This document shows positions 26,971-29,483 of a stretch of 33,123 nucleotides of DNA, one piece after another. Position numbers and translations under genes: made by a program. The stretch's first letter is position 1. The number at the start of each line of letters is the position of its first letter. The DNA is taken from NCBI GenBank assembly GCA_002687895.1, contig NZBL01000009.1:1-33123 (forward strand), written 5' to 3'. The notes beneath the pieces are model-generated. The model was given only the letters and a program-made list of their open reading frames with translations. It ran no database searches and was not told where the DNA came from. This DNA is from a bacterium (GTDB lineage Bacteria; Patescibacteriota; Patescibacteriia; UBA2169).

Positions 26971-27150
26971 ATGACTGAGCAAAGATTACAAATAAAGGGC
27001 TATGAGGGTCTTCCTGTGTATTATCAGGAAGATGAGCCTGATAGTAGCGTTACAAGGGCTAGAGCCCAAAAGGTTCAGAAAGAGGAAGATAGGCCTAGTC
27101 ACGAAAGGGACGATGATGCTGGCGCTGGCATACAAAGGGGGCTTGAATAG
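26971..27150 (+). CDS. Small acidic/charged protein controlled by leader B, 59 aa
   Basis: AAGGAG Shine-Dalgarno; MTEQRLQIKGYEGLPVYYQEDEPDSSVTRARAQKVQKEEDRPSHERDDDAGAGIQRGLE. Confidence 0.65.
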   Translation: MTEQRLQIKGYEGLPVYYQEDEPDSSVTRARAQKVQKEEDRPSHERDDDAGAGIQRGLE

Positions 27151-27170
27151 ATTGTCGCCGCCATGCTGAT

Positions 27171-27204
27171 AAGGGAAGCAGAGTATTGCTTCCCTTATTT
27201 TTTT
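27171..27204 (+). terminator. Terminator after small protein B
   Basis: AAGGGAAGCA-GAGTAT-TGCTTCCCTT-ATTTTTTT. Confidence 0.85.
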
Positions 27205-27211
27205 GGTACAA

Positions 27212-27437
27212 TAAAAAGGACCCTGTATAGTAAAAGATCACTACACAGGGTCCACCGAATTGAATGAGCATGCGCAGGCAAAGAGGTAACCGGGCCTTAT
27301 GGCCACAACACCTTGCGGCCCAAGGATTCGAACCTTGGCTCCTTGCGGGTGCCAACCGAATCCCACGCTTGGCTTTGCGCCTCCTTTCCGGTTTCGCAGA
27401 TTTTCGGTTTCTCTCCAGCACTATGGCCAGAGACGAT
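27212..27437 (-). ncRNA. Free-standing structured ncRNA of unknown class, about 225 nt
   Basis: Minus strand: TTGACA (27472-27467), 17 nt, TAGTAT (27449-27444); structured GC-rich body with GCGAAACCGGAAAGGAGGCGCAAAGCC and CCAAGG-TTCGAAT-CCTTGG; terminator GGACCC..GGGTCC (27218-27253) with T5. Confidence 0.7.
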
Positions 27438-27481
27438 AAAAAAATACTATATCAAAATATTTAGATTGTCAAGTAAATTTT

Positions 27482-27976
27482 ATGTTAAAAGTATATAAAT
27501 CAAAAAGAGATTTTAAAAAAACAAGCGAGCCAAGTGGTTCATTGCGCAAAGCAAAATCAAAGCAGCCAATGTTTGTTGTGCAAAAGCATCAAGCGCGAGC
27601 TTTGCACTATGATTTTCGGTTAGAGGTTAGCGGCGTGCTCAAGTCATGGGCAGTGCCAAAAGGCCCCTCAAAAAACTCTAAAGACAAGCGTTTGGCAGTT
27701 ATGACAGAAGATCATCCTTTGGAGTATGGTAAGTTTGAAGGTGAGATTCCAAAAGGCGAGTATGGAGCAGGTAAAGTTAAAATTTGGGATTCTGGGACAT
27801 ATGAGAATCTATCTAAGAAAAAAGATGGAAAAGATATGTCTATGGAAAGCGCCATAAAAGAAGGTGAAGTTGAAGTTAAACTTTCTGGGAAAAAGCTAAA
27901 AGGAGGATATGCTTTGGTTCGAACAAAATTTAGGGGCGAGAAAAAGAATTGGCTTTTGATTAAGATGAAAAAATAA
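27482..27976 (+). CDS. Stand-alone DNA ligase D 3'-phosphoesterase domain protein
   Basis: FVVQKHQARALHYDFRLEVSGVLKSWAVPKGPS...HPLEYGKFEGEIPKGEYGAGKVKIWDSGTYE. Confidence 0.92.
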   Translation: MLKVYKSKRDFKKTSEPSGSLRKAKSKQPMFVVQKHQARALHYDFRLEVSGVLKSWAVPKGPSKNSKDKRLAVMTEDHPLEYGKFEGEIPKGEYGAGKVKIWDSGTYENLSKKKDGKDMSMESAIKEGEVEVKLSGKKLKGGYALVRTKFRGEKKNWLLIKMKK

Positions 27977-29118: not shown

Positions 29119-29243
29119 CATAATTTATGATTATGCTATTATTTTATATAGCAAATTCGAACAAACAATTTAACTGAATGTTCGAATTGTTTTAATCAGC
29201 GATCGTCGCGCAAGCGAAATGAAAAAGTACTCTTTTTCATTTC
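29115..29243 (+). promoter_or_regulatory. Promoter followed by hairpin-rich leader
   Basis: TTGACA (29115-29120)/16 nt/TATTAT (29137-29142); aattcgaaca...tgttcgaatt stem; perfect 12-bp stem gaaatgaaaaag-tact-ctttttcatttc (29216-29243). Confidence 0.55.
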
Positions 29244-29287
29244 AGATGCCTGTGAGCTGATATACTTATAAGTAAGTACAACTTACT

Positions 29288-29458
29288 ATGCAAGACGCAA
29301 ACCCAACACCAGATCCAGCTGCTCCTGCACCAGATCCAGCAGCGCCCGCACCTGACGCAGCTCCGGCTGCTCCAGCAGAGGGCGGTGATGCACCAGCTAT
29401 GCCTGAAGCACCTGCAGAAGGCGGAGATACAGCAGCTCCAGCAGAGCCAGCAGTATAA
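29288..29458 (+). CDS. Low-complexity Pro/Ala/Asp-rich small protein, 56 aa
   Basis: MQDANPTPDPAAPAPDPAAPAPDAAPAAPAEGGDAPAMPEAPAEGGDTAAPAEPAV*; followed by a terminator. Confidence 0.55.
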   Translation: MQDANPTPDPAAPAPDPAAPAPDAAPAAPAEGGDAPAMPEAPAEGGDTAAPAEPAV

Positions 29459-29483
29459 TTGAATTCACAAGATTCACCAAAGA

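Follow-up and report, generated by a model that had tools for sequence, protein, structure and literature searches.

Among described RNAs, those closest in layout to the one considered here are the bacterial Y RNAs, whose crystal structure (6CU1) overlays that of tRNA once a circular permutation is allowed for (PMC11472068). In one of them, YrlA, a stem joins the two ends of the RNA and a domain resembles the D, T and acceptor arms; the stem binds Rsr, the tRNA-like domain binds PNPase, and both DusA and TruB act on the RNA as a substrate (PMC8394870). The literature presents bacterial Y RNAs as tethers serving Ro60-type proteins (PMC4726728, PMC8394870). Here we analyzed an intergenic locus in a 33,123-nt stretch of a Patescibacteriota genome (GCA_002687895.1, contig NZBL01000009.1; hereafter the window). 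Our best explanation for this locus, which carries a probability of roughly 0.45, is a lineage-specific small RNA (sRNA) of ~226 nt with a Y-RNA-like, permuted tRNA-mimic module.

The minus strand from 27437 to 27212 is well supported, as a prediction from sequence, as a free-standing non-coding unit, given its promoter and terminator, its outlying GC content and a codon usage that speaks against a peptide. A sigma-70-like promoter (TTGACA-17-TAGTAT, minus strand, 27444..27472) matches the consensus at 10 of 12 positions. The predicted transcript (27212..27437, minus strand) ends in an intrinsic terminator with a 16-bp stem and a T tract (27212..27253, minus strand), recognized by signal scan and folding, and ~183 nt of body lie between the two signals. 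The terminator faces that of a plus-strand unit (27168..27199, signal scan). The promoter, the strong terminator and the convergent ending of the original prediction were thus all recovered. Across the surrounding 1 kb, seven promoter-like and seven terminator-like sites were counted, versus shuffle means of 1.5 and 1.2. The unit is flanked by a 59-aa orphan open reading frame (ORF; 26971-27147, plus strand) and by a divergent ligD 3'-phosphoesterase gene (27482-27976, PF13298), and we found no gene downstream of it for regulation.

The body is 55.8% GC compared with 38.8% for the window, and equally GC-rich 181-nt segments make up 0.45% of the window and 0.48% of the genome. The body had been described as GC-rich and structured in AT-rich surroundings, and the compositional part of that description stands. 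The structural part does not follow from energy alone, because the folding z-score of the whole unit (-4.4) stems from the terminator; the body by itself gives -0.8, and 106 of 500 shuffles are equally stable. We also considered that the unit might be a small messenger encoding a 41-aa peptide, as a AAAGGAGG motif at RNA positions 51-58 is followed 13 nt on by a GTG whose frame stays open into the terminator. The spacing is poor, however, and the peptide has no convincing homolog. We rejected it on codon usage, as the best-placed 41-codon frame scores -0.39 against 0.14 +/- 0.11 for real gene segments, under all 200 sampled, which makes a coding role very improbable. The signals and the absent coding signature therefore uphold the earlier call of a stand-alone non-coding RNA, and the locus is very probably a real orphan, lineage-specific sRNA gene.

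Scans against Rfam at gathering thresholds and at a permissive setting (E<=10 over 351 bases) returned no match to c-di-GMP-I riboswitches, RNase P RNA, tmRNA, SRP RNA or 6S RNA. The original prediction had seen a partial core of the c-di-GMP-I (GEMM) riboswitch. The strings behind this idea (GCGAAACC...GCGCAAAGCC and CCCGGTTACC) are present, and the segment GCGAAACCGGAAAGGAGGCGCAAAGCC (27371..27397, minus strand) resembles the family in sequence. The likeness stops at these short strings: the covariance model RF01051 is unmatched even at the permissive setting, there is no downstream gene to regulate, the spacing is unlike that of the family (as had been pointed out) and a fuzzy core pattern gave background-level matches only. 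A GEMM riboswitch, or a relic of one, is accordingly an explanation to which we give almost no credence.

The view that the locus is none of the large housekeeping RNAs fared better. RNase P RNA is encoded at G000:C3:8017-8429 of the same genome (G000), and the tmRNA also sits elsewhere, neither Rfam nor ARAGORN reporting one at the locus. That tmRNA gene, which adjoins smpB, was missed by ARAGORN and found by Rfam, and tmRNAs of the family have a conserved, unusual T-loop (GCGGG-AGAATAG-CCCGC; L051 = G000:C1:25300-25700, L045, L046, L049 and L050). An SRP RNA is unlikely because the small-SRP RNA, Ffh and FtsY were not found: RF00169 is absent from all seven family genomes, and phmmer searches with approximate Ffh and FtsY queries found neither protein in the genome or in 940 kb of G002, while queries for EF-Tu, LepB, PNPase, TruB and SmpB were matched. 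As seen with these queries and the small-SRP model, the family may be without an SRP pathway.

The T-arm-like element CAAGG-TTCGAAT-CCTTG (27321..27337, minus strand) was evaluated by pattern and shuffle counts. The string CCAAGG-TTCGAAT-CCTTGG is present as described, and only 24 of 20,000 shuffled bodies (0.12%) carry such an arm. Both strands of the 735-kb genome hold 53 instances of the pattern, 36 within tRNAs and 17 outside them. The T-arm is real, rare and beyond chance. A canonical tRNA was rejected: ARAGORN reports none at default settings, and the tRNA covariance model RF00005, which reads D-, anticodon- and T-arms weakly in canonical order, reaches 13.3 bits, below its gathering threshold of 29. 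An intron-split tRNA was also tried as the identity of the RNA and rejected. Elsewhere in the genome, ARAGORN detects 37 tRNAs and none for Phe or Pro, an absence that contig gaps or intron-split genes could explain.

The T-arm had been reported to lack a matching acceptor. That is so in canonical order; in circularly permuted order, an acceptor-like helix of 7-8 bp abuts it. This hairpin (GGCCGCAA-GGTG-TTGTGGCC, 8 bp, 27301..27320, minus strand) has a mean pair probability of 0.68 and is picked up by our descriptor. After it come a 3-nt linker, a D-arm-like element with GG in its loop (AGG-CCCGGTTA-CCT, 27284..27297, minus strand) and CTTTGC (27278..27283, minus strand), the 3' strand of an anticodon-stem-like helix whose 5' strand, GCAAGG (27341..27346, minus strand), lies immediately 5' of the T-arm; these last elements come from the descriptor and the enforced fold. 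On paper, the layout is that of a tRNA whose acceptor is closed and whose ends open in the anticodon stem.

A descriptor for the permuted acceptor, D-arm and anticodon stem has a single match in the genome and none in 940 kb of G002; another candidate match, at L159:8322, is a tRNA-Ile plus the terminator after it. Given the T-arm, shuffled flanks meet the descriptor in 0.16% of cases with a 7-bp acceptor, 1.7% with a 6-bp acceptor and 7% with a 4-bp anticodon stem, frequencies that flatter the module because the descriptor, which has no positive control, was drawn up after the sequence had been seen. Counting against the module, its D-loop is without A14 and R15 and its linker without U8. These models show that this sequence accommodates a permuted module beyond what chance would give.

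Other RNAs with permuted tRNA-like parts are less similar. In two-piece tmRNA the 3' strand of the acceptor also comes before the 5' strand, but our RNA has no recognizable tag frame, and the tmRNA of this genome is one-piece and lies beside smpB. In the circularly permuted tRNA genes of algae and archaea the 3' half likewise precedes the 5' half. In contrast to these, the opened stem of our RNA has no anticodon loop, just 4-6 nt separate its acceptor strands, and long extensions are found on both sides.

Folding predicts a 5' hairpin (UCUCUGGC/GCUGGAGA, 27412..27433, minus strand; mean pair probability 0.99) followed by a domain (27254..27408, minus strand) closed by ACCGAA (27408-27403) with UUCGGU (27259-27254), a helix of mean probability 0.94. 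When the T-arm, acceptor and D-arm are enforced, the anticodon-like helix emerges unasked, as does a second basal stem on the minus strand, GAG..GCGCA (27383-27376) with UGCGC (27276-27272) and CUC (27268-27266). This tRNA-like fold has an energy of -90.6 kcal/mol versus -95.9 for the best fold, a gap of ~5 kcal/mol in a comparison that leaves tertiary contacts out. In plain folding the pair probability of the T-arm is 0.01, and the minimum-energy structure instead has a hairpin at 27364-27323 (mean pair probability 0.91-0.93) with flanking hairpins.

This best predicted fold is compatible with a lineage-specific, stand-alone sRNA that has no tRNA-like module and acts by mRNA base pairing or protein binding, the T-arm being coincidental. 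We regard that as a serious possibility, also in view of the orphan sequence and of how readily descriptors on one sequence are over-read. The competing hairpin is nevertheless ordinary for its composition, its local fold being equally stable in 29% of shuffles, whereas the T-arm together with the permuted module is rare.

Searches for homologs by BLAST, by a sequence model and by a structured model, covering 381 class genomes, found none. BLAST and the structured model retrieved only the window's own copy, besides one BLAST match in G047 that falls inside a coding gene and is due to chance; weak matches to the sequence model were tRNA-Val genes in many cases and otherwise unsupported. Structured models R2 and R3 yielded no credible match across the family, the class, G002 and the portions of G001 and G005 that were searched, and R2 gave nothing further in the genome itself, where the gene is single-copy. 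With a single sequence, no covariation, for which R-scape on homologs had been proposed, backs the predicted helices, and this counts against the module.

A synteny search through ligD among the genome contigs did not uncover a close relative. In G005, of the same family, locus L006 has a similar protein gene and a similar terminator with ligD adjacent, and neither the RNA nor the 59-aa ORF lies between them. Together with the absent homologs, this indicates that the RNA was either gained by this lineage or lost from the others. The 59-aa ORF (MTEQRLQIKGYEGLP...), which is followed by a terminator, has no relatives either among 286 genomes of the class or in Pfam. Such an arrangement, with a neighbouring ORF that is likewise an orphan, could reflect a recent insertion or a decaying remnant of DNA, foreign or mobile, that currently serves no function. 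We consider this improbable, as the promoter and terminator are intact and sit exactly at the edges; in addition, phages and plasmids gave short chance matches only, and four exact patterns found no match in viral contigs.

The preferred reading, an sRNA with a permuted tRNA-mimic module, would have two predicted traits in common with bacterial Y RNAs such as YrlA: a putative stem pairing the ends (ACCGAA/UUCGGU, mean probability 0.94 on a single sequence) and a permuted module, as drawn from the sequence, with a T arm, a D arm and a closed acceptor. The gene for the Y RNA partner, Rsr/Ro60 (TROVE), is usually next door. The present locus, by contrast, has no rsr/rtc neighbourhood, its RNA measures 226 nt rather than 90-150 nt and is without an Rfam match, and no TROVE gene was found in the genome or the family (PF05731, absent from seven of seven genomes, control positive). 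As the genome is ~96% complete, a TROVE gene could be hidden in a gap there, less so in all seven genomes, three of which are <90% complete. We thus rejected membership of the Y RNAs on the absence of TROVE from the family. An approximate E. coli query for RtcB also had no match in the genome.

By analogy, the most likely role would be that of a protein-binding small RNA that engages a tRNA-binding protein through the tRNA elbow. The RNA would be transcribed independently, and its basal stem (ACCGAA/UUCGGU plus GAG..GCGCA/UGCGC..CUC) would carry a module, formed in the cell, of anticodon-stem-like helix, T-arm, closed acceptor hairpin and D-arm. The module might present a tRNA elbow to tRNA-binding proteins, as in bacterial Y RNAs, so that the sRNA could act as a scaffold, gate or decoy. 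PNPase and TruB are candidate partners; protein queries located both genes in the genome. Among RNA-binding proteins, a KhpA query was matched, and E. coli queries for Hfq and CsrA were not; all of these queries, like those for housekeeping proteins, are approximate, and the absences are to be read with that in mind. It is a bolder and rather unlikely proposal that a Ro60-independent mimic of this kind tunes PNPase or a tRNA-binding enzyme directly in a patescibacterium. If true, a tRNA mimic with Y RNA topology in a 0.74-Mb genome that yielded no Ro60 gene would point to a separate function for the tRNA-like half, or to more than one origin of permuted tRNA mimics. Even apart from the Y RNA comparison, the locus neatly exemplifies an orphan sRNA gene from a group of bacteria that has received little study.

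The window also contains a small gene for an Ala/Pro-rich protein (MQDANPTPDPAAPAPDP..., 29150-29460, plus strand) before cysS. Its leader is rich in inverted repeats and ends in AAGTAAGTACAA...ATGCAAGA, and counterparts with similar leader ends occur near ligD in L006 and L007.
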